In this document: one piece after another, positions 19,690-33,877 of the stretch
Numbering within the stretch: the first letter of the stretch is position 1
How the letters are laid out: each line of letters opens with the position of its first letter
Assembly (NCBI RefSeq): GCF_900188035.1
Contig: NZ_FZNN01000030.1
Coordinates: forward strand, 1-33,877
Source of the DNA: Puniceibacterium sediminis
Lineage (GTDB): Bacteria; Pseudomonadota; Alphaproteobacteria; Rhodobacterales; Rhodobacteraceae
Length of the DNA stretch: 33,877 bases
Direction of reading: 5' to 3'
The notes under the pieces: model-generated
The model's input: only the letters and a program-made list of their open reading frames with translations
The model's database searches: none
Told to the model about the DNA's origin: nothing
Made by a program: the position numbers and the translations under genes

Positions 19690-20186
19690 TCAGATACCGA
19701 CAGCAACCTCATCTCTTGGCGCGTCAAACGCCGTTTTAAGTCTCAAAATGCTCCAGGCCATGCGCGCCAGTTTATTTGCAAGGGCGATGGGGCCTTGTTT
19801 CGCTGCATGCGTTCTGACGCACGTATCAGCCACTCGCCAAAGCTAAAGTCGGGCCATCGATGTGGCCGCATCATGATGACTTTGGCTGCTTGGACGAACA
19901 GCATCCGTAGATATCGACTTCCTCGTTTTGAGATTCGCCCCAAGATCGTTCGCCCACCGGTGCTGTATTGTCGGGGAACGAGGCCGACCCAGGCGGCAAA
20001 GTCACGACCGCGATCAAAGGCTTCGCCTTCACCTACCGCCGCGACCATCGCCGTGGAAATCATTGGACCAATACCAGGGATCGTCATGACATTTCGGCAG
20101 TTCTCCTCGGTACGGCTGATCTCTTCGATCTCTGCTGAGACCTTGTCGATGAAAAACGGGTTAAAGTTGTCTCGGAATCGGGGCAA
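19690..20186 (-). pseudogene. IS110-family transposase remnant, N-truncated and frameshifted
   Basis: The C-terminal transposase domain of IS110-type elements is clear: TIPGIGPMISTAMVAAVG, then FAAWVGLVPRQYSTGG, LGRISKRGSRYLRMLFVQAA. The N-terminal DEDD (RuvC-like) catalytic half is absent; homology starts at about FFIDKVSAEIEEI, right inside direct repeat B. Near 19787-19797 the frame shifts: the normal C-terminal end LANKLARMAWSILRLKTAFD is read in another frame and stops at 19690-19692, while the original frame stops at 19743. The element is therefore dead unless trans-complemented. It marks the region as horizontally derived. Confidence 0.88.
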
Positions 20187-21661: not shown

Positions 21662-22288
21662 TCATTCCTGCGCCTGTCTCCGCCAGCCTCGCCACGCCCC
21701 GGTCCAAGGCTTGAGCCGTCCTACCGTCAGCGCCCATGCTCCGATCGTCAACCCGCACATCAAGGTCTTCGAAACACTCCCCATCGTGCCTTCGATCAGG
21801 ATCGCGTGAACTACGCTTCCGACCACCACGACGGAGGCCGCCATGGTGTGTGCAAGTCGCCAGACCTGGGGGCGAAGACGGAGCTTCTTCCTGATACCGG
21901 CGAGGAGCGCCGCTGCGATCAGGGCCCACATCGCCACGACGCCAAAGGCGGAGAACGCTGTCGGCGCGGCGAAGGTCAAAGCATCGACCATGTCAGGCGG
22001 GCTCGTGATCCACAGCCCGACGACATGCACGGCAACGGCGAGCATCAGCGCAACGCCGGTCCAGCGATGGATTCGTCGCCCGGCCTGCATCGGGAACCCG
22101 GGTAACAGCCCGGCGGCCAGCAAAGGTTGCACCAGCAGGAGTGCCAGCGCGACCACACCGGCGAATCCTGCCGCCACGTAGACGGGGGTACGATACGGAA
22201 GGTACTCGCTCCCTGCAGCAACGACCAGGGATGCGCCGATCACGCCCGCAATCGCACACCAGATGAGGATCACACGGAAGACGGTCAA
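21662..22288 (-). CDS. Ferric-reductase-like transmembrane haem protein
   Basis: The 208-aa protein has about six membrane helices. Two of them carry His pairs 14 residues apart: IHRWTGVALMLAVAVH and AHTMAASVVVVGSVVH. That is the bis-haem b pattern of the ferric reductase/NOX/MsrQ membrane domain. There is no FAD or NADPH domain, so like MsrQ it would take electrons from quinols or a separate flavoprotein and pass them across the membrane. The likely start is TTG at 22288, two bases after the stop codon of the upstream Tat-protein gene, so the two are probably translationally coupled. Family fairly sure, partner inferred. Confidence 0.8.
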   Translation of the reverse strand: MTVFRVILIWCAIAGVIGASLVVAAGSEYLPYRTPVYVAAGFAGVVALALLLVQPLLAAGLLPGFPMQAGRRIHRWTGVALMLAVAVHVVGLWITSPPDMVDALTFAAPTAFSAFGVVAMWALIAAALLAGIRKKLRLRPQVWRLAHTMAASVVVVGSVVHAILIEGTMGSVSKTLMCGLTIGAWALTVGRLKPWTGAWRGWRRQAQE

Positions 22289-23894: not shown

Positions 23895-24174
23895 CTTGTC
23901 AGTGCTATCCCTCAGGCCCGCGGATCGTGCTACTATCGTAGCCTTGCTCGGTCATACGAGCAATCAGTAGATGCAACCAATGATCGATTGACGAACGGCC
24001 CGAAGCTGCCACTCGCCATCAAGATGTTTGCCGCAACGCGGCTTCACCAGAGCTGACCTTCAAATATGGCGGCGACTATCTGACAGTCTTCTCCCATATT
24101 CATTCGAATTCCCAGGGTGTCGGACATGGTGAGATTGGCCGCAGAGGCGTGCGATAACACTGCAAGGCGAAACC

Positions 24175-24501
24175 TTGCGTTACAGGGCCTTACGCCGGGC
24201 CATCGTAAGGATCAGTGAGCGGGTGTTCTCCAAGACATTGAATGCACCGGAAATTGATGTGCTGGTACATCGCGAGGTCGTAGAGGTCATGCCGCCACAT
24301 GTCGAATATTGCCTGACCGACTTGGGAGTTGAAGCTGCCGAGCGGCGGCGATCTCTTGCAGATTGGATCGAAGACAGCCTGCCGCGCGTCGGCGGCGAAT
24401 GGGCGCTACGCGGTGTGATCGGGCCTGATGGGTCTGTCAGGTTACCAGAATTGACTGAATCGCTCGGTTTGCCTGGTCGCGTGGGGCGAAGAAGTGTGTG
24501 A
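24175..24501 (+). pseudogene. HxlR-family transcriptional regulator remnant, N-terminally truncated
   Basis: The translation LRYRALRRAIVRISERVFSK, then LVHREVVEVMPPHVEYCLTDLGVEAAE, matches the second half of the HxlR winged helix (R-x-L-R-x-A-I-x-x-I-S-x-x-x-x-x-x-x-L, P-x-V-E-Y-x-L-T-x-x-G). The first helices (the WT-x-x-I-L-x-x-L part) are absent, and reading upstream meets a stop after about 14 codons. The frame has no ATG start near the domain. Probably a relic of a regulator once linked to the lost oxygenase; it is next to, but not clearly part of, the TRAP operon. Confidence 0.7.
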
Positions 24502-24586
24502 AATCAAATCGCTGCACTGCTTGATAGGCTGAGGGCGATGCAATTATTGAAATATAGATTTCCCTTTTTGCACATTCATGTGTAAT

Positions 24587-24611
24587 GGTAACTTCAGGCG
24601 AGGGAATTACC
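24587..24611. promoter_or_regulatory. Candidate operator in the TRAP operon leader
   Basis: GGTAACTTC and GAATTACC form an imperfect inverted repeat (one bulged base) around an 8-bp centre, between 47 and 23 bp before the first start codon. A TetR-type repressor such as the one at 32160 could bind here. This is a weak prediction. Confidence 0.3.
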
Positions 24612-24633
24612 GCGCTAACGGAGGAGGAAAACC

Positions 24634-25641
24634 ATGAAATTCAAAACAACACTCACGGCCATTTCCCTTTTGGGAACGTTTGCAACTGGCGCAAACGCCG
24701 AAGGCAAGGAGATGTTGCTAGGCACCATGGCGGTGCCCGGCACAACCGTTGAAACCGCATCCCATCTTTTTGCCGAAAAGGTCGCCGCCGAGATGCCCGG
24801 TCAGCTTACGGTGATAGTGAACGACTCGCTGTTGAAAGGCGCTCAGCTGGCACCATCCGTCCGGGATGGGGTGGTCGACGCAGTGGTTGCAGTGCATCCC
24901 TATCTCTCTGGCTCCGAGCCTGTGATGGGGCTCCAGAACCTGCCGGGTGTCATCCGAACCGCTGAGGAATATCAAGAGGTTCTTGCTGCTTTCTGGCGAG
25001 AAGACCTGCGCTCCCTTTGGAACGACAACTGGAATTCTCATGTGGTAGCCGAAGGAGCATGGGCTACACATAACCTTTTCACCGCCAAGCCTGTAGAAAC
25101 TCCCGAGGACTTCGCAGGGCTGAAAATCCGCGTCCATAATGCCGAAACCGCGCGCTTCATCAGCCAGCTCGGTGCCCTACCCACGCCGCTGGATGCCTCT
25201 GAAATGGCCGCAGGGCTTGAACGTGGGGTGATCGACGGGCTGTTCACACCTTCGTGCTACGCCTTCAAGCAAGAGCTCTTCCGGTCTGCCTCGCATATCG
25301 GTAACTGGCAGATCGGTCCGATCCAGGGCTGGGCGATCCTGATCAACAACGATAAGTGGAATGCCCTCAGCGCGGATGAACAGGCTGCGCTGACCGACGC
25401 CGGAGAGGCCGTCGAGGCAGAGATGTGGGCGAACTTTGCAGCCAACACTGCCGAATGTGTGGACGGGATGACCGCTGAAGGGGCGAGCTACTTCGAAGCC
25501 TCCGAAGAGGACATGTCGGCCATTTTCACCGATGCGAACACTCAGCCCGTCTTTGACGACTGGAAGTCCCGCATGGCCGACAAGGGCTTTGACGGTGACA
25601 AGACGCTTGTACAGGCAATGAAAGCCACGGCGGGCGAATAA
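24634..25641 (+). CDS. TRAP transporter solute-binding protein, DctP type
   Basis: The 335-aa periplasmic receptor has a Sec signal (MKFKTTLTAISLLGTFATGANA). The mature DctP fold shows VETASHLFAEKVAAEMPGQL, ETPEDFAGLKIRVHNAE with the conserved Arg that usually clamps a substrate carboxylate, then EMAAGLERGVIDGLFTP and WAILINNDKWNALSADEQAAL. It delivers an organic acid to the membrane subunits encoded next. A strong GGAGGAGG precedes the ATG. It is the first gene of a six-gene run; the permease gene follows after 24 bp. The ligand is not readable from sequence; the linked CoA genes suggest a carboxylic acid. Confidence 0.92.
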   Translation: MKFKTTLTAISLLGTFATGANAEGKEMLLGTMAVPGTTVETASHLFAEKVAAEMPGQLTVIVNDSLLKGAQLAPSVRDGVVDAVVAVHPYLSGSEPVMGLQNLPGVIRTAEEYQEVLAAFWREDLRSLWNDNWNSHVVAEGAWATHNLFTAKPVETPEDFAGLKIRVHNAETARFISQLGALPTPLDASEMAAGLERGVIDGLFTPSCYAFKQELFRSASHIGNWQIGPIQGWAILINNDKWNALSADEQAALTDAGEAVEAEMWANFAANTAECVDGMTAEGASYFEASEEDMSAIFTDANTQPVFDDWKSRMADKGFDGDKTLVQAMKATAGE

Positions 25642-25665
25642 GCCCCAATCCCCAAGGAGAACACC

Positions 25666-27699
25666 ATGTCGTCAACCGCATCTATTGCGGCGGACCAGTC
25701 CCCTGTGCCCGCGGACACCGCGGGGGCAGGCGGCGGCTGGCAGGTCGCGGGGCTTCCCGGCGCGCTCTGTGTCGCGGCCCTTCTGGTTATCTCAGTCTTC
25801 GAGATCGTCTCGCGCTACGGGTTCAACGCGCCCACCTTCTGGGCGACCGAGATCTCGACCTATTTTGGCGTGGCGGCGGTGTTCCTGTCGCTGGCCTATG
25901 CCGAAGTGCGGGGGGAACACGTCCGCGTCGAGGCGTTTTTGGAGCAGCTGTCCGAGGCCCGGCGGGCCCCGGTTCTGCGATTGGCCAACTGGCTGGGTGT
26001 GGTGTTCATCGCCTTTTGCACGGTTGAGATGACGCGGTATCTGGTAGCGGATTACACCGCCGGGACGCGCAATTGGGGATTGTTGTCGACGCTTCTGTGG
26101 ATCCCGCAGGTGCCGGTTGTTCTCGGGCTGGCTGGGTTCACCGCGATCCTATCGTGGCGTGCGACACAGGGGGCAGGACAGCAGGCCATGGCGGTTTTGA
26201 TCGTCGCGGTTTCTGCCGTGGCGGGGTATTACGCAGGCCGAAAGGGGATGACGGTTGCCGGGCACATGGTGCCGTGGAGCCTGCTGATCGTCACCGGCGC
26301 GGCTTCGATTTCAGCCGCGATCACAACCGGCTTGCGCAGCGGGGCACTGCTGGCCAGCGTGCTGGGCCTTGCATGTGCCGCGATGATGCTGGCGGCCGGG
26401 GGCGGGCAGACTGGCGCGGCTATCGTGATCCTGATCTTCGTGTTCGCTTTCCTCGCCATGGGGATGCAGGTTGCCGTGGCGCTTGGCCTTGTCGGCGCGC
26501 TTGGCTTGATCTTTCTGCCGCCGATCCCGCAGGCGGTTGTTGTGGCCGAACGCGTTTGGAACGGCGTTAATTCCTTTACCTACACTGCCGTGCCGATGTT
26601 CGTCCTTATGGGCAGCCTTCTGATGCGCGCGGGCATTTCGCGCAGCCTGTTCGACGGGCTGGTCGTCTGGATGGGGCGGATTCCGGGGGGGCTGGCCCAG
26701 GCCACGCTGACGGCCAGCGGGTTGTTCGCGGCGCTCTCTGGCTCGTCCATCGCCACCGCAGCCACGATCGGCAAGGCGGCGGGACAGGAGATGCTGGATC
26801 GCGGTTACAAGCCGTCGCTGGCGCTTGGCTCCATCGCCGGGGGCGGGACGCTTGGGATCCTGATTCCGCCCAGTGTGCCCATGATCATCTTTGCGGCCAT
26901 GGTCGGTGTGTCCGTGACCAAGCTGTTCGTTGCGGGCATCGTGCCGGGCTTGATGGTGCTGGCCAGCATGATGGCGGCGGTCTGGATCTGGTGTCTTCTG
27001 AAACCCGAGGCAGGCCATATCGGCCGCGCTTACTCCCTGGCCGAAAAAGCCCGCGCTTTTGTTCAGTTTGGCCCGTTCCTAGCGCTGATCGTGATCGTCA
27101 TCGCATCGCTCTATTTCGGGATCGTCACCGCGACCGAAGCAGGCGCACTTGGGGCTGCCCTTGCGCTGATCCTTGCAGGTTTCTCCGGCAAGCTGTCGTT
27201 TGACATGGTCCGTGGCGCGCTGTTGGAAACGGCCGCGTTGACCGGTGGCATTCTGTTCATCGTGATCGGTGCCGGGATGCTCAGCTGGCTGGTCGATTAC
27301 CTGCGCATCGCCACAATGATGGTCGAGGCGGTCGAGGGCAGCGGCATGTCCATCGTGTCGATCTTGCTGATGCTGATGGTCGTATACCTGATCCTCGGGA
27401 TGTTCATCGACCCGATTTCCATGATGCTGATGACGGTGACGATCACCTACCCCATCGTCCTGCACGCCGGTTATGACGCACTGTGGTTCGGTATCGCCCT
27501 GATGATGATGATCGAGGTCGGACTGATCACGCCACCAGTCGGCATCATCCTCTTCGTGCTGCGCGGATTGTTCCCGCAGGCTTCGTTCCGCGAGATCTCA
27601 CTGGGGTCTCTCGTCTTTGTCGGCGTCATCCTCACGAATGTCGTCCTGATCGCCGTGTTCCCGCAGATCGTCTCCTGGCTACCGGGCCTGATGAACTGA
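25666..27699 (+). CDS. TRAP transporter fused permease, DctQM
   Basis: The 677-aa membrane protein fuses the small four-helix DctQ subunit (about residues 25-165, with TEISTYFGVAAVFLSLAYAE and HVRVEAFLEQL) to the large DctM subunit. Extra hydrophobic helices lie between (about 165-255). DctM landmarks include FVLMGSLLMRAGISR, FAALSGSSIATAATIGKAAG, GSIAGGGTLGILIPPSVPMI and EVGLITPPVGIILFVL. It imports the solute with sodium co-transport, as TRAP systems do. AAGGAG precedes the ATG. Confidence 0.93.
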   Translation: MSSTASIAADQSPVPADTAGAGGGWQVAGLPGALCVAALLVISVFEIVSRYGFNAPTFWATEISTYFGVAAVFLSLAYAEVRGEHVRVEAFLEQLSEARRAPVLRLANWLGVVFIAFCTVEMTRYLVADYTAGTRNWGLLSTLLWIPQVPVVLGLAGFTAILSWRATQGAGQQAMAVLIVAVSAVAGYYAGRKGMTVAGHMVPWSLLIVTGAASISAAITTGLRSGALLASVLGLACAAMMLAAGGGQTGAAIVILIFVFAFLAMGMQVAVALGLVGALGLIFLPPIPQAVVVAERVWNGVNSFTYTAVPMFVLMGSLLMRAGISRSLFDGLVVWMGRIPGGLAQATLTASGLFAALSGSSIATAATIGKAAGQEMLDRGYKPSLALGSIAGGGTLGILIPPSVPMIIFAAMVGVSVTKLFVAGIVPGLMVLASMMAAVWIWCLLKPEAGHIGRAYSLAEKARAFVQFGPFLALIVIVIASLYFGIVTATEAGALGAALALILAGFSGKLSFDMVRGALLETAALTGGILFIVIGAGMLSWLVDYLRIATMMVEAVEGSGMSIVSILLMLMVVYLILGMFIDPISMMLMTVTITYPIVLHAGYDALWFGIALMMMIEVGLITPPVGIILFVLRGLFPQASFREISLGSLVFVGVILTNVVLIAVFPQIVSWLPGLMN

Positions 27700-27729
27700 T
27701 CGAAACCAAATAAGGGAGGAGGAATTCCC

Positions 27730-29364
27730 ATGCCAAATATTGATCTACCCCCGCAGATCGCCGTCCGAGTCGCCGATCTGACCGCCACCTTCTCGGCCCC
27801 CAATGCCTGTGCAACGCAGCAGCTCTGCGACCGGCATCCGGCGGACCGCGTGGCCTATCGCATTATCGGCGGCGGCGCGCCGGTCGACCTGACCTTCGGG
27901 GCGCTGAAGGCCCGTTCCGAACGACTGGCCAGCGGGCTGTCCAAACTGGGTTACGGCCCCGGTGACCGGATCGCGACGCTGATGTCCAAGGGCGAGGATT
28001 ACCTTGTCACGCTGCTGGCCGTCTGGCGGCTGGGGGCGGTCTACGTGCCGTTGTTCACCGCCTTTGCGCGCGGCGCCATCGAAATGCGGCTGGAGGCGAG
28101 CGGCGCCCGGCTGGTAATCTGCGATGCGGCGCAGCGGTCCAAGTTGGGCGGTCTGGCCCTGCCCGAACTAAAGGTTGGTCAGTTCGGGAAGGCAGGAGCC
28201 GACCTGTCCATGCAGAACATCGAGGCCAGCGGGGACGATGCCTTTCCCGCCCATGCCGCGGGCGGCGATGGCGCGGTGATCGAGGTCTATACCTCGGGCA
28301 CGACCGGCAAGCCCAAGGGCGTCGTTGTGCCTCTGCGCGCCTGGGCCGGGTTCCAGGCTTATGGTGAATTCGGCCTTGGCCTGACGCACGGGGACGTTTT
28401 CTGGAACGCCGCTGATCCGGGCTGGGCCTATGGGCTCTATTTCGGGGTGATTGCGTCGCTGACAAACGGCGTGACCGCGATCATGCACACCGAAAAGTTC
28501 ACCCCCGAAGGCACCTTGGCAGTGTTGCGGGATCAGGGGGTCACGAACTTTACCGCCGCGCCGACGGTCTACCGCAGCCTCAAGGCGCATGGGGTCGGGC
28601 CGGAGCCGATCCGACTCAAAAACGCCTCCAGCGCCGGAGAGCCGTTGACACCGGATGTGAACGAATGGGCTCCAAAGACGCTCGGGGTCGAGGTGCATGA
28701 CCACTTTGGCCAGACCGAGGCCGGAATGCTGGTGAATAACCATCACCACCCCGATCTGAAGCGTCCGATCAAGCCGGGGTCGATGGGCCAATCGCTGCCC
28801 GGCTGGGACATGACGGTGGTCGACCCCGACACACACGAAGAGCTTGGCCCCGATCAGCCCGGCCTACTGGCGGCGCGCCTTTCGGAAAGCCCATTTGCGT
28901 GGTTTTCAGGCTATCGCAGCGCCCCCGAGAAGAACGTTGAGCGGCTAACGCCTTGTGGCCGCTGGTATCTGACTGGCGATCTGGCGCAATATGATGCCGA
29001 AGGGTCTTTCCGTTTTTCATCGCGGGATGACGACGTGATCATCATGGCGGGCTATCGGATCGGGCCGTTCGACATCGAATCCGTGATCTCGACCCACCCG
29101 GCCGTGCGCGAGGTTGCCGTGGTTGCGGTGCCGGACGAAATCCGGGGCGAAGTTCTGGAAGCCGTCGTCGTGCTGAACGCGGACTTCACAGCGTCCGACG
29201 ACCTGTCGGATGAGATCAAGCAGAAGGTCCGCACGGACTATGCCACCTATGCCTATCCGCGCCGGGTGCATTACCGCGAAGACCTGCCCAAGACACCCTC
29301 GGGCAAGATCCAGCGCTTCTTGATCCGTCAGGATCTGCGCCGTGCGCTCGAGGTGTCGGAATGA
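27730..29364 (+). CDS. AMP-forming acyl-CoA ligase (acyl-CoA synthetase, medium-chain/aromatic-like)
   Basis: The 544-aa adenylate-forming enzyme activates a carboxylic acid to its CoA thioester through an acyl-AMP. The P-loop VYTSGTTGKPKGVV lies at about residues 186-199. Motif HDHFGQTEAG, the YLTGD motif, the hinge GYRIGPFDIES and the catalytic Lys in KTPSGKIQR (about 526) are all present. The hinge and overall layout resemble medium-chain acyl-CoA or benzoate/acetate-type ligases; the acid is unknown. GGGAGGAGG precedes the ATG. The stop overlaps the next start by 4 bp (ATGA), showing coupling with the dehydrogenase. Confidence 0.92.
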   Translation: MPNIDLPPQIAVRVADLTATFSAPNACATQQLCDRHPADRVAYRIIGGGAPVDLTFGALKARSERLASGLSKLGYGPGDRIATLMSKGEDYLVTLLAVWRLGAVYVPLFTAFARGAIEMRLEASGARLVICDAAQRSKLGGLALPELKVGQFGKAGADLSMQNIEASGDDAFPAHAAGGDGAVIEVYTSGTTGKPKGVVVPLRAWAGFQAYGEFGLGLTHGDVFWNAADPGWAYGLYFGVIASLTNGVTAIMHTEKFTPEGTLAVLRDQGVTNFTAAPTVYRSLKAHGVGPEPIRLKNASSAGEPLTPDVNEWAPKTLGVEVHDHFGQTEAGMLVNNHHHPDLKRPIKPGSMGQSLPGWDMTVVDPDTHEELGPDQPGLLAARLSESPFAWFSGYRSAPEKNVERLTPCGRWYLTGDLAQYDAEGSFRFSSRDDDVIIMAGYRIGPFDIESVISTHPAVREVAVVAVPDEIRGEVLEAVVVLNADFTASDDLSDEIKQKVRTDYATYAYPRRVHYREDLPKTPSGKIQRFLIRQDLRRALEVSE

Positions 29365-30125
29365 CGATGCGGGGTTATTCAGGAATTGTGACCGGGGCCG
29401 CCTCCGGCCTCGGCCGAGCTACCGCCGAACGGCTGGCGGCAGAAGGCGCGCAGTTGGTGCTAATGGATATGAACGCCGAGGGTCTGGAGAGGGTCCGCGC
29501 CACGCTTCCCGGCACCCATGTAGCGGCCGTTGCTGACATCCGCGATCCTGATCAGGTGCGCGCGGCGGTGGATGCGGGTGCCAAGGCCTTTGGTGCCCTG
29601 CGGTTTGTGGTTAACTGTGCCGGCATCCCGTCTGCGGCCAAGACCGTGTCGCGAGGCGTCGCGCATGACCTGGACCTCTGGAATCGCGTCATCGGCATCA
29701 ACCTGACCGGATCGTTCAACGTGCTGCGTCTGGCGGTAGAGAAGATGGTTGACAACGACCCGGATCCCGATGGCCAGCGTGGGGTGATCGTCAACACCAG
29801 CTCCATCGCAGCGTTTGACGGGCTCAAGGGGCAGGCCGCCTATACTGCCAGCAAGGCAGCGATTGCGGGCATGACCTTGCCGATCGCGCGGGATCTGGCC
29901 GATTACGGCATCCGGTGCCTGGCCATCGCACCTGGCGTGTTCGAGACCGAATTGACTGCCAGCGTGCCTGAGAAGGGCCGCGAAGCGATGGAGCGCAACT
30001 TCCTTTTCCCGCGCCGCACCGGTCATCCGGCTGAATTCGCCGACATGGTGCTGACGCTGATCACGAACCCCTACCTGAATGGCGAATGCGTCCGCATCGA
30101 TGGCGGCACGCGCTTTGCCCCATAG
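29361..30125 (+). CDS. Short-chain dehydrogenase, 3-hydroxyacyl-CoA dehydrogenase type 2 (HSD10)-like
   Basis: The 254-aa Rossmann enzyme has TGAASGLGRATAERL (nucleotide binding, about residues 10-24), NCAGI, the catalytic Ser in NTSSIAAFDG, and YTASK (Y161, K165). The tail NPYLNGECVRIDGGTRFAP and GVFETELTASVPEKGREAM are close to the human HSD17B10/bacterial 3-hydroxyacyl-CoA dehydrogenase type. It would oxidise a 3-hydroxyacyl-CoA to the 3-ketoacyl-CoA with NAD. Alternatives are BadH-like cyclic hydroxyacyl-CoA dehydrogenases. The thiolase gene follows after 18 bp. Confidence 0.9.
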   Translation: MTMRGYSGIVTGAASGLGRATAERLAAEGAQLVLMDMNAEGLERVRATLPGTHVAAVADIRDPDQVRAAVDAGAKAFGALRFVVNCAGIPSAAKTVSRGVAHDLDLWNRVIGINLTGSFNVLRLAVEKMVDNDPDPDGQRGVIVNTSSIAAFDGLKGQAAYTASKAAIAGMTLPIARDLADYGIRCLAIAPGVFETELTASVPEKGREAMERNFLFPRRTGHPAEFADMVLTLITNPYLNGECVRIDGGTRFAP

Positions 30126-30143
30126 GCCACCGGAGACCTAATA

Positions 30144-31310
30144 ATGACCCAAGATGTCTATATCCTCGGCACCGCCAGAACCCCGATAGGGGGCCTGTTG
30201 GGCGAATTGTCGGGCCTCAGTGCCACCGAACTGGGGGCGCATTCCGCCCGTGCGACGGTCGAGCGCTCCGGCCTGAGCCCCGAGGCGGTCGAGCAGTGTT
30301 TCATGGGCTGTGTCCTACCCGCAGGGTTGGGGCAGGCCCCGGCACGACAGGTCGCCCTGTCCGCGGGCCTGCCCCGGTCGACGCAGGCCACAACAGTGAA
30401 CAAGATGTGCGGATCGGGCATGCAGGCTGCGATTCTGGCGCACGACCGGATCAAGGCGGGCGGCGCGTCGGTCATTCTTGCAGGTGGGATGGAAAGCATG
30501 TCCAACGCCCCGCATCTGTTGCCGCGCCAACGGCAGGGGATCAAGTTCGGCAACGGGACGATCATCGATTCCATGTCCCGTGACGGTCTGGAAGATGCCT
30601 ATGAACCCGGCGCGTTGATGGGCCAGTTTGCGGATCGTTCCTCGGTCGCACATCAGGTCAGCCGCGAAGAACTGGACGATTTTGCCATTATGTCGCTGGA
30701 ACGCGCCATGGCCGGGGCCTCAAGCGACGAAATCGCCGAGGTCGAGGTCACCTCGCGCCGTGGGGTGCAGGTCGTGAGCACCGACCAACAGCCCCGCAAT
30801 GCGGATATCGCCAAGATCCCGCAGTTGAAGCCGGCCTTTGGCCCAGAGGGGCGCACAACGGCGGCCAATGCGTCGTCGATCTCGGATGGGGCGTCGACCA
30901 TGATCCTTGCGGCGGCCGAAGCCGTTCCAGCGCACGCGCCCCGCGTGCGCATTCTGGGACATGGCTGCTATGCCGCTGATCCCGACCAGTTCTGTTCCGC
31001 GCCGGGCTTTGCCATGGCGGACCTGCTGTCGCGGATCGGATGGGGGGCAGAGGATGTCGACCTCTACGAGGTGAACGAAGCCTTTGCCGTGGTCCCCATC
31101 CTTGCCGCGCGCCACATCGGTGTTTCGCTGGACAAGGTGAACATCCGCGGCGGTGCCTGCGCCCTTGGTCACCCAATCGGGGCCAGCGGGGCGCGTATTG
31201 TGACGACTCTCGTCAACGCCTTGATCGCACGCGGTGGCGGGCGGGGCATAGCCTCGATCTGCCTCGGCGGCGGAGAGGCGTTGGCCATGGCACTGGAGGT
31301 GACCGGATGA
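30144..31310 (+). CDS. Thiolase (acetyl-CoA C-acyltransferase)
   Basis: The 388-aa enzyme keeps all catalytic residues: nucleophile Cys89 in NKMCGSGMQAA, NEAFAVVP, His343 in GHPIGASGARI, and Cys373 in SICLGGGEALAM. Length is normal. It cleaves 3-ketoacyl-CoA with CoA to acetyl-CoA (or propionyl-CoA) and a shortened acyl-CoA; the direction is inferred from the importer and ligase in the same operon. The last four bases overlap the start of the crotonase gene (ATGA). Confidence 0.93.
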   Translation: MTQDVYILGTARTPIGGLLGELSGLSATELGAHSARATVERSGLSPEAVEQCFMGCVLPAGLGQAPARQVALSAGLPRSTQATTVNKMCGSGMQAAILAHDRIKAGGASVILAGGMESMSNAPHLLPRQRQGIKFGNGTIIDSMSRDGLEDAYEPGALMGQFADRSSVAHQVSREELDDFAIMSLERAMAGASSDEIAEVEVTSRRGVQVVSTDQQPRNADIAKIPQLKPAFGPEGRTTAANASSISDGASTMILAAAEAVPAHAPRVRILGHGCYAADPDQFCSAPGFAMADLLSRIGWGAEDVDLYEVNEAFAVVPILAARHIGVSLDKVNIRGGACALGHPIGASGARIVTTLVNALIARGGGRGIASICLGGGEALAMALEVTG

Positions 31311-32089
31311 CACAGACCCAAGCACAGGAAAAAGCACACGCCCTGACCCGGATCTGCCGGGTCGAAGACGGGATCGCCTGGATCACCATGGACCGTCCCG
31401 ACAAGGCCAATGCCGTCAGCACCGCCCTGCTGGGCGATATCCTTGAAGCACTGGATGCGGCCGAGGGAACACCCAGTGTCAACGCAGTGGTCTTCTCGGG
31501 CGAGGGGCGGCATTTCTGTGCCGGCGCTGACCTGTCCGAATTTCTAGCCGAAGGCCCGTCGGCCTTTCGCCGCCTTCTGAACGCCTTCCGCGAGGTTTGC
31601 ACCCGTTTCGAACACTCGCCCCTGCCGATAATCGCCATGGCGCAGGGGGCCACACGGGCCGGTGGTCTTGAGCTGATGCTCTGCTGTGATGCTGTGGTCG
31701 CGGATGAAGGCGCCACAATCGGCGACGCGCATATGTTGCGCAACCTGCTGCCGGGGGGCGGCAACAGCGTCCGCCTGCCGCGCAGCATCGGGCATCAACG
31801 CGCCAAGTGGATGATCCTATCGGGCCAGTCGATCTCGGCAAAGCAGGCGCAGGACTGGGGGATCGTGACCCAATGTGTGCCGCAGGGCGACCTGCGCTCA
31901 GAAACCCTCAGCGTGGTGGCTGAAATGACCGTGGGGCATCGCGATACCATCGCCCGCGCGAAATCGCTGCTGGTCGCTGCGGACACGCTTGGATTTGAAG
32001 AGGCGCTGGAGAACGAGATCGTGCAGCTCGAGCAGCATTCCACAAGCCAGGCTCTGAGAAAAAGCTTGGCCGGGTTCCTCGGCACCTGA
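31307..32089 (+). CDS. Crotonase-fold protein (enoyl-CoA hydratase/isomerase family) with altered active site
   Basis: The 260-aa protein has crotonase landmarks: AWITMDRPDKANAVS, FSGEGRHFCAGADL (first oxyanion-hole region), AQGATRAGGLELMLCCDAVV (second, with Glu122), then LPRSIGHQRAKWMILSGQSI. Rat crotonase uses Glu144 and Glu164, 20 residues apart; here Glu122 is kept but the position 20 residues on is His142 (IGDAHML instead of FGxPE). PGGGNS also replaces PGxGGT. Simple hydratase chemistry is therefore doubtful; an isomerase, hydrolase or other crotonase reaction is possible. Last gene of the operon, start fixed by the ATGA overlap. Confidence 0.85.
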   Translation: MTQTQAQEKAHALTRICRVEDGIAWITMDRPDKANAVSTALLGDILEALDAAEGTPSVNAVVFSGEGRHFCAGADLSEFLAEGPSAFRRLLNAFREVCTRFEHSPLPIIAMAQGATRAGGLELMLCCDAVVADEGATIGDAHMLRNLLPGGGNSVRLPRSIGHQRAKWMILSGQSISAKQAQDWGIVTQCVPQGDLRSETLSVVAEMTVGHRDTIARAKSLLVAADTLGFEEALENEIVQLEQHSTSQALRKSLAGFLGT

Positions 32090-32159
32090 CTTGGGGCGGT
32101 GCGCTGGCGGCCAGCTTCCGGTGCGCCAACGCGCCTTGTAACCTCAAGGCGAAACGCAG

Positions 32160-33005
32160 CTAACCGGACGCCTTTCCGACAACCGCGCGCACACAGAAGT
32201 CGGCGATCGCCTCGACCTGGACCAGTTGCTCAGCCGCAGTGATATCGTTGACCCGGGCAATCGGGCCAACCAATGCCTCGAACAAAGACCCAACAATGCA
32301 AGCGGCTGACACTTGCGCGGGTTGATCCACAAAGGCCCCTTCGTGAATGCCCCGGTCAATCACTGTCTCGAATACGCGCATCAGTTTCTGGCGATATCGC
32401 AGCCGCTCGACCTCAATCTCGCTTTCGACGGGTTCGGCGACAAGCGCATACCCCATCCGGCGCCCCCGGATCGCCCGGCTGCCGAAGGTGTAGGCGCACC
32501 GACGCAGGATTTCCTTGGCAGGCTCGTCCCCCATGGCGATGCCGGCCACGACATCGACCTCATGCTGGGATACATGCGCGACGACTTTGACCAGCAGGTC
32601 TGTGCGCGACTTGTAATTGCGATACAGCGTCCCTTGGGCAAGCCCGGCGCGTTCGGCAATTGTGCTGACCTGTGCGTCACGAAAACCCACCTCGGACACG
32701 AGTTCTATTGCGGCCGCCAAGAGCCGCGCTTTCTTGTCATGCTGCGGAAAGGCAACCATTCCCGGCGTGTCAGTCAGTAAAGCTGGCGCAGATGCCGGCA
32801 GTTCAGGAGCAACCCCGGAGTGCATCGCCTCATGCTCAAGATACCAATTTTCAGCAAAGCGGCGTGCTTCATCAAGATTTTCGGTCTTTGTGCTTGCCCG
32901 CTCGCTCACACCACCAAAACTGCCCTGACATTGCCAGTAGCGACTGTTTGCTCTGCGGTACAGGTTTACCCTGCCTCCGACCGCCTCGTGTTTTTCACTT
33001 TTCAT
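32160..33005 (-). CDS. TetR-family regulator with N-terminal phage-integrase arm-type DNA-binding domain
   Basis: From the ATG at 33005 (AGGA about 9 nt upstream) the protein is 281 aa. Residues 12-60 (RVNLYRRANSRYWQCQGSFG, STKTENLDEARRFAENWYLE) read like the arm-type DNA-binding domain at the N-terminus of tyrosine integrases (V-x-L-Y-x-R-x-x-S-x-Y-W, R-x-S-T-K-T-x). After a Pro/Ala linker (61-88), residues 90-140 form a TetR helix-turn-helix (AAIELVSEVGF, STIAERAGLAQGTLYRNYKS). The rest is a helical ligand/dimer domain. It is convergent with the catabolic operon and probably controls it. Two in-frame upstream starts exist, up to TTG at 33071. Confidence 0.85.
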   Translation of the reverse strand: MKSEKHEAVGGRVNLYRRANSRYWQCQGSFGGVSERASTKTENLDEARRFAENWYLEHEAMHSGVAPELPASAPALLTDTPGMVAFPQHDKKARLLAAAIELVSEVGFRDAQVSTIAERAGLAQGTLYRNYKSRTDLLVKVVAHVSQHEVDVVAGIAMGDEPAKEILRRCAYTFGSRAIRGRRMGYALVAEPVESEIEVERLRYRQKLMRVFETVIDRGIHEGAFVDQPAQVSAACIVGSLFEALVGPIARVNDITAAEQLVQVEAIADFCVRAVVGKASG

Positions 33006-33877
33006 GGTATCCAAGTCCTGCCGTGTGAAAAATTTATAATCAAAAATCAGTGTTTTCACAATGTTCTTCAAATTCAGATGTCCAAGGCTGCAATGGCGGT
33101 GCGGGACTTAACGCAAATTGGGCCATTTCGACCTTTGGCACCCGGTTGGAGCTGTTTGTTCGCGAGAGTTGCGGCAAAATTCCGGACCGCAAAGGCGCGT
33201 GTGGTATGAGGTCGCCCGACTGCATCGCCAAGACATTTGATCTGCATCATGCCGCAAGCCGTCATTTCCCTGTCGAAAAGTTTCTCTATTTGTTTAGCGC
33301 GGCTCGGGCCGGTTACAGCGCAAGTCAACCAATTGGACGGCTGCAGTCGATCGGTTACCCTCTCATGCAAAATGGTGTTTATGGGGCGATCTCTGGACCA
33401 GAAGCCCCGCTAAGAACTCGGTCGAAAATTGCCGGGCAACTGCTGGGAATGGCCATAGCTGATTTCAGTGTCGATCAGCTGTAGGTTGACTTGCAAGGCC
33501 AAGCTCAATGTCCAATTTTAGGCTGAGGACCTGTAGCGCGTTCGTGCAAGCGGCGAATGGCAGCTTCCCGCCCTCTGTGTCGATGACGTCAAGGTGGGCA
33601 GGGATCACGATGACCGGCAGAAAAGGGCTGGGAGCGGTCGAGCGTCATGCTGTGCCTGGGCGTCAGCAAAGCGCAGGAAGCGGTCGCTGCAAAGTTGCGA
33701 ACCGTGATCGGCCTTGATGCCACGACCGGCCCAAACCGGCCTTTCGCTATGCAGTTGTCTTGCCGCAGTGCAGCTAGGCAAAGCGGATGGGGTGGATAGC
33801 TCCTGCTCCACCCGGCGTCGCAATGCGCCATACTGCAGTTGTCTATCACTGCTAGGAAAGGAGCTACCCAATGCAAG
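33006..33877. other. Gene-free end region with repeat-like sequence
   Basis: Frames here (plus 33050-33484; minus 33074-33370 and 33589-33876) have no domain, no SD and chance-like composition. Two of the minus frames share VRNFAAT, suggesting related decayed repeat units. The TetR-gene promoter must lie in the first part. Confidence 0.5.
33672..33746 (+). repeat. Dispersed intergenic repeat, copy 2
   Basis: Ungapped partner of 23077-23151 (58 of 75 identical by eye), same orientation, also outside genes. Confidence 0.75.

Follow-up and report, generated by a model that had tools for sequence, protein, structure and literature searches.

An integrase-derived arm-type domain joined to a TetR/FadR-type regulator, and candidate arm-like sites at its presumed targets

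Tyrosine recombinases carry a catalytic domain with conserved R...HxxR...Y residues, and arm-type sites typically lie beside the integrase start, repeated and helically phased. That integrases can repress their own promoters is indicated by IntS of the Mesorhizobium element ICEMlSym(R7A), which acts as a negative regulator of the promoter of its own gene, beside arm-type sites, and lowers PintS-lacZ by about 25% (PMC11963761). IntS differs from the protein described here in being a full recombinase, with the arm consensus TGKTGGTATC. The double TetR regulator Mce3R of Mycobacterium tuberculosis is reported to bear two DNA-binding units per chain (PMC11667970), but both are of the TetR type, whereas the second unit of the present protein is of integrase origin. 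The TetR part of the present protein has the TetR-type FadR of Bacillus as top structural match (PDB 5gp9 and 3whc, the latter with stearoyl-CoA), at 17-18% identity and without an integrase-type domain in FadR. By sequence it resembles a TetR subfamily typified by Paraburkholderia WP_071336744 (L083; 51-53% identity over about residues 90-279, five plasmid records), which likewise lies beside CoA-ligase (AMP-binding), SDR and thiolase genes but has no arm domain. The other part resembles the N-terminal domains of alphaproteobacterial integrases such as L030 (388 aa) and L073 (on an IMG/VR contig), in which, unlike here, core-binding and catalytic domains follow. Among the titles and abstract openings searched, no described TetR regulator with an integrase arm-type domain was found.

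The window analysed is the whole 33,877-nucleotide stretch of Puniceibacterium sediminis DNA (33.9 kb). It carries a real fusion gene, in which a TetR/FadR-type acyl-CoA regulator is joined to the 5' end of a gene for a tyrosine integrase. The gene and the presumed target operon are composed as follows.

32160 to 33005, minus strand: fusion gene, 281 aa (arm-type domain, linker, TetR regulator), from open reading frame reading; its orthologue from 5001 of the Actibacterium lipolyticum locus aligns without an indel
32817 to 33005, minus strand: integrase-derived arm-type domain, residues 1-63, from homology and AlphaFold2
32736 to 32816, minus strand: linker, residues 64-90, from the full-length structure model
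32163 to 32735, minus strand: TetR/FadR-type regulator, residues 91-281, from Pfam TetR_N and the Foldseek top match
32616 to 32618, minus strand: codon for Asn130, which lies in the predicted recognition helix, from an alignment of 34 homologues
33033 to 33061, minus strand: promoter-like TTGTGA-17-TATAAA upstream of the fusion gene, found by eye
24634 to 25641, plus strand: solute-binding protein of a TRAP transporter (DctP), encoded by the first gene of the operon presumed to be the target
25666 to 27699, plus strand: fused TRAP DctQM permease
27730 to 29364, plus strand: AMP-binding acyl-CoA ligase
29361 to 30125, plus strand: SDR dehydrogenase
30144 to 31310, plus strand: thiolase
31307 to 32089, plus strand: enoyl-CoA hydratase family protein

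The reading frame, which an earlier note on this DNA had described as continuous, runs unbroken through 281 codons from an ATG at 33005 to a stop at 32160-32162, exactly where that note had placed it. Its choice of a start that includes the extra domain was also upheld: by eye, AGGA lies 10 nt upstream of this ATG, and a well-spaced Shine-Dalgarno sequence was not found at Met83, which of the in-frame ATGs is closest to the TetR part. By eye, an AT-rich promoter-like stretch lies directly upstream of the integrase-derived start; a consensus sigma-70 scan of 32000-33500 reported no promoter. The fusion, the homology of its arm domain and the retention of that domain are well supported.

Residues 1-56 or 5-56 of the protein aligned without gaps to integrase N-termini. 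The closest matches (50% identity for L029, 52% for L030) came from the same bacterial family and were integrases or pieces of them, and identity to integrase N-termini in other alphaproteobacteria was 43-49%. Local-alignment scores against five integrases were 25.7-28.9 standard deviations above the mean of 500 shuffles per integrase. The arm domain retained 13 of 14 integrase-conserved columns, the exception being a change of Lys to Arg. At the strand-turn, the fusion has V-S-E, whereas close integrases mostly have K/R-N-R/H, a difference that may mean weaker or altered recognition. All six scanned integrases of the group matched Phage_integrase (PF00589). This model was absent from the 281 residues in the Pfam scan, and the protein, having no catalytic domain, is not a tyrosine recombinase. 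No Pfam, NCBIfam or PHROGs model matched residues 1-90, and the identity of the N-terminus rests on direct homology to integrases; residues 1-84 gave one sub-threshold match, to DUF6538 (E 0.24). At the DNA level, the 5' end of the fusion had just a 15-nt match to the fetched loci (E 0.54). No relative of the source integrase was detected elsewhere in the same genome at E 0.01, the arm domain and likewise one integrase of the group were unmatched in phage records, and a pattern-based scan of viral contigs found no relative of the fusion.

AlphaFold2, run on five sequences, predicted strands at residues 4-8, 13-17, 24-30 and 33-38 and a helix at 44-62, with a mean pLDDT of 82 over residues 1-75; the N-terminus is thus predicted to be folded rather than disordered, the alternative that the earlier note had raised against itself. 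In the full-length model, residues 64-84 had pLDDT below 50 and separated the arm domain from a confident TetR fold, and the protein is predicted to consist of two folded domains on a flexible linker. The predicted topology of the arm domain fits an AP2-like fold (beta-sheet plus C-terminal helix), with library E-values that were not significant: the top Foldseek match in the PDB was the AP2 domain 6sy0 (probability 0.91, E 0.075) and the best viral E-value was 0.04. The viral integrase A0A6J7WRP6 superposed on the arm domain at 1.1 A over 48 columns (E 0.15), and a sequence-profile search of the PDB gave a single match at E 0.86. The predicted fold supports the arm-type assignment and alone is no proof of it; the proof lies in the homology of the sequence.

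The TetR part scored 46.5 bits against TetR_N (PF00440; cut-off 24), which identifies a helix-turn-helix, and its all-helical ligand and dimer core matched FadR and others with a Foldseek probability of 1.00, Bacillus FadR structures being the best PDB matches. Pfam models of the TetR C-terminus matched below cut-off only. Sequence homology and the predicted fold therefore bear out the proposal that an integrase arm-type domain precedes a complete TetR regulator. The predicted recognition helix carries Asn130 in both species that have the fusion, whereas all 34 arm-less homologues aligned, the Paraburkholderia-type subfamily among them, have an aromatic residue or His at this position (Tyr in 27, His in four, Trp in two, Phe in one).

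The second species is Actibacterium lipolyticum (locus L021, genome G334), in which a fusion of 96% amino acid identity stands beside the same acyl-CoA-type operon; the architecture that the earlier note had asked for among homologues was thus found once. Across 394 genomes of the same family, the arm domain matched in 17, at 18 places, all of which were read: two were the fusions of P. sediminis and A. lipolyticum, and the rest were full-length integrases or frames of 56-212 aa without a TetR part. The TetR part was found in two of the 394 at E 1e-18 or better. Searching 385 genomes of the class at E 1e-9 gave 41 places in 30 genomes, categorised by matched span, with frames read for 26 of 27 new loci, as one fusion (that of P. 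sediminis), 29 TetR-only and 11 arm-only. Among 361 genomes of the order, nine places in eight genomes comprised the same fusion, five TetR-only and three arm-only loci (four frames read); the family, class and order sets overlap. A pattern scan of genome contigs yielded six loci, the A. lipolyticum fusion and five TetR-only. The fusion was absent from the other Actibacterium genome searched, and none of the 21 plasmid records with matches covered 80% of the protein.

Thirty-four arm-less TetR homologues were collected, two of them cut by a contig end, and no arm domain preceded the TetR part in any of the 32 that could be assessed. Open frames would permit longer N-termini in some (up to 100 residues), and the arm domain matched none of these, its three matches to the extended frames (E 0.24-0.54) lying away from the TetR start. 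The possibility that homologues all start near residue 85 thus proved half true: the domain is missing from all 32, but A. lipolyticum has a full-length fusion. The known carriers are these two species only, and they have the cluster in common by descent or transfer, so that the candidate sites in the two are not independent.

The fusion gene is convergent with the TRAP/acyl-CoA operon. Synteny with A. lipolyticum extends over positions 24155-33573 (about 9.4 kb), where DNA identity is 84-90%, and the flanks are unmatched. The block looks horizontally acquired, because a match to the hydratase at E 1e-40 was found in just one other among five genomes of the genus, at 36% identity. Upstream of the fusion gene, A. 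lipolyticum lacks a stretch of about 240 bp (33185-33425), homology resuming at 33425-33573; upstream of the A. lipolyticum fusion, in a region without a DNA match in the window, lies a gene for an Imm11-type immunity protein (L021:3285-3971, minus strand). Upstream of dctP, at 24157-24501, the window contains a fragment of an HxlR-type regulator (51 bits), probably a decaying gene, since the corresponding A. lipolyticum stretch has indels. On the minus strand at 19743-20186 is what looks like a C-terminal piece of an IS110-type transposase, which suggests a past rearrangement left of the cluster.

Comparison of the two species revealed selection on the extra domain. Residues 1-65 had a dN of 0.006 and a dS of 0.168, against 0.019 and 0.166 for the TetR part. 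Six of the seven changed codons in residues 1-65 were synonymous and one was nonsynonymous (P 0.0004, or 0.0075 with synonymous sites weighted twofold). Selection on the arm and TetR parts was not significantly different (Fisher P 0.66), and the fusion gene is free of indels between the two species. The arm domain is under purifying selection.

Many of the integrases related to the arm domain share a repeated motif. Direct repeats of CTTACACA, 11 bp apart, lie within about 90 nt before the integrase starts of L065-L067, L070, L088, L029, L110, L106, L102 and others, and a subgroup has CTAGCACA at the same 11-bp spacing. After removal of duplicates by the last 80 nt, 36 of 43 integrase-type upstream regions, including those of broken integrases, were distinct; TTACACA occurred on the sense strand in 19 of them and on the antisense strand in one, against a mean of 0.73 and a maximum of 4 in dinucleotide shuffles. 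Seventeen adjacent one-mismatch pairs were exactly 11 bp apart, the next most frequent spacing being 8 bp with four pairs. Judged from these upstream sequences, the TTACACA repeats are probable arm-type sites of this alphaproteobacterial integrase group, for which we know of no described ones.

Candidate sites of this kind, and one resembling a TetR operator, occur at the presumed targets of the fusion.

24568 to 24585, plus strand: TTGCACA-N4-TGTGTAA, an inverted pair resembling arm-type sites, with starts 11 bp apart, within the operon promoter, from motif, matrix and genome scans
33024 to 33060, no strand assigned: a pair of oppositely oriented TTTCACA sites, each differing from TTACACA at one position, around the fusion promoter and also present in A. 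lipolyticum
24549 to 24562, no strand assigned: GAAATATAGATTTC, with a weak likeness to the operator that the TetR clade has in Burkholderiales, lying 5 bp ahead of the arm-like pair; rank 2 in the window when scored against the sites of that operator

TTACACA occurs once in the window on either strand, at 24579 in the dctP promoter, facing TTGCACA at 24568. This assembly and that of A. lipolyticum each contain a single match to TTRCACA-N4-TGTGYAA, located in both at the dctP operon promoter, and the reversed control pattern has no match in either genome. Scored with the integrase-site matrix, the operon pair ranked 2 and 17 in the window, where a single site at 21848 slightly outscored it, and 1 and 7 in a 16.5-kb A. 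lipolyticum stretch. The sites at the fusion promoter (33024 and 33054) were weak by matrix, ranking 257 and 72 in the window, and were unlike the operon pair in orientation and spacing. The 31 one-mismatch sites in the window formed just two pairs within 40 nt, at the operon and fusion promoters; A. lipolyticum has both of these, along with two more pairs elsewhere in its 16.5-kb stretch. Shuffled promoter DNA contained an exact site with a one-mismatch partner at a frequency of 0.0004, and two one-mismatch sites, as at the fusion promoter, at 0.05. Among 8192 strand-symmetric 7-mer classes, 18 paired in both promoters, nine of them also in A. lipolyticum, and two, TTACACA and TTGCACA, gave an exact conserved pair; the pair, 7-mer and permutation figures are guides, as the distance limits of 7-40 nt and the 133-nt promoter windows were chosen with the sites known. 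Pairs were formed by 10 of 210 permutations of TTACACA in the dctP promoter, by five in the fusion promoter and in both by one, TTACACA itself. The integrase repeats had been noticed before the window was tested, and the operon palindrome had already appeared earlier in the analysis. The direct-repeat array of the integrases, at two mismatches or fewer, was absent from this genome (reversed control: one forward, one reverse) and matched once in A. lipolyticum, against two matches of the reversed control.

The arm-less relatives have different operator candidates. Upstream DNA was assessed for 32 of the 34, L024 and L059 having too short a stretch, and the 32 include several that are closely related to one another. 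TGAA-N6-TTCA occurred within 350 nt upstream in 18 (0.24% in mononucleotide shuffles) and the Burkholderiales palindrome in five, so that 23 of 32 had either; the arm-site pair occurred in this range in none, and is present for the A. lipolyticum fusion. The nine with neither were six remote homologues (<60 bits), L049, L111 and L113, the last two having the palindrome elsewhere in the locus. This palindrome, TTAAGTGAAAT-N3-GATTCACTTAA, is near-invariant in seven Burkholderiales loci (L022:4717, L023:4716, L083:8755, L084:8795, L111:3244, L112:2252 and L113:3273) and is the operator candidate of the Paraburkholderia-type subfamily; TGAA-N6-TTCA is that of more distant members, in most of the remaining, alphaproteobacterial, arm-less loci. 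The latter was absent from the dctP and fusion promoters of both species and from the whole window, where 0.51 occurrences were expected and absence alone is unsurprising. GAAATATAGATTTC had a score of 2.7, against 34.7-40.2 for the training sites. Comparison of the dctP and fusion promoters for a shared TetR-type operator gave nothing clear.

Taken together, we consider it likely that the gene encodes a working regulator in which the captured arm domain supplies or swaps DNA specificity. A TetR dimer, through linkers of about 25 residues, would set its two arm domains on the inverted TTGCACA-N4-TGTGTAA pair of the operon promoter; the weaker TTTCACA sites at the promoter of the fusion gene itself might also be bound. 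Much of the DNA specificity would then come from the arm domains, as it does from the TetR helix-turn-helix in arm-less relatives, and the operon would stay repressed until the TetR core binds an acyl-CoA-like ligand. The shared fusion and synteny, the selection, the conserved columns, the sites in both promoters, Asn130 and the contrast in operators argue for this reading. Against it stand the orientation of the sites (direct in the integrases, inverted in the operon pair), the V-S-E strand-turn, the weak sites at its own promoter, the restriction to two related species and the degenerate TetR-like palindrome at the operon promoter. More tentatively, the operator may have been switched in both species: the domain would have been captured, the helix-turn-helix would have drifted (Asn130), and the operator of the clade would have been lost from the operon promoter and replaced by the arm-type motif of the integrase. 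If so, this would be a clean bacterial case of a transcription factor that captured a DNA-binding domain from a mobile element and had its targets rewired, one in which the former operator (seen in relatives), its replacement and the sites of the source integrase group can all be observed. Regulatory rewiring by domain capture would become directly testable in vitro, and arm-type sites are predicted for the integrase group.

The earlier note had allowed either a repressor with two DNA contacts or a decayed relic, and the former, in which binding is predicted, fits better. In the relic case, the 5' end of the integrase gene would have given a promoter, a ribosome site and a leader peptide, and the domain would fold and be tolerated but read no DNA. 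The altered strand-turn residues, the very narrow distribution, the promoter-like stretch seen by eye directly before the integrase-derived start and the weakness of the own-promoter sites would all suit this, yet a passive leader accords poorly with purifying selection similar to that on the TetR part, with 13 of 14 conserved columns or with arm-type-like pairs at precisely the two promoters concerned, and we regard it as unlikely.

A different explanation, which we find quite improbable, is that the altered TetR helix-turn-helix, or another regulator, reads the pair at 24568-24585, the likeness of this pair to the integrase repeats being chance and the arm domain serving, for example, in protein contact. 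The motif was derived from upstream regions of integrases in other genomes, only those 18 7-mer classes pair in both promoters, and 23 of 32 arm-less relatives have another operator candidate while none has the arm-site pair; these points weigh against it, even though the pair is palindromic like TetR operators, Asn130 could alter the specificity of the helix-turn-helix, and the half-sites of the TetR clade (GTGAA) overlap in sequence with the TTTCACA variant. That the TetR part alone is made, from Met83, with the upstream frame untranslated, agrees with the arm-less state of all 32 assessable homologues but is scarcely credible given the codon-level purifying selection and freedom from indels in residues 1-88, the poor Shine-Dalgarno context of Met83 and the promoter-like stretch before the ATG at 33005.

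The arm domain was also found on Bradyrhizobium plasmids, in five matching records, of which two were opened and one was translated. There, a 145-aa protein annotated as hypothetical (L098:1495-1932 and L099:1495-1932), encoded beside a TrlF-type ATPase, contains the arm domain and the apparent start of the next integrase domain, and is probably a truncated integrase.
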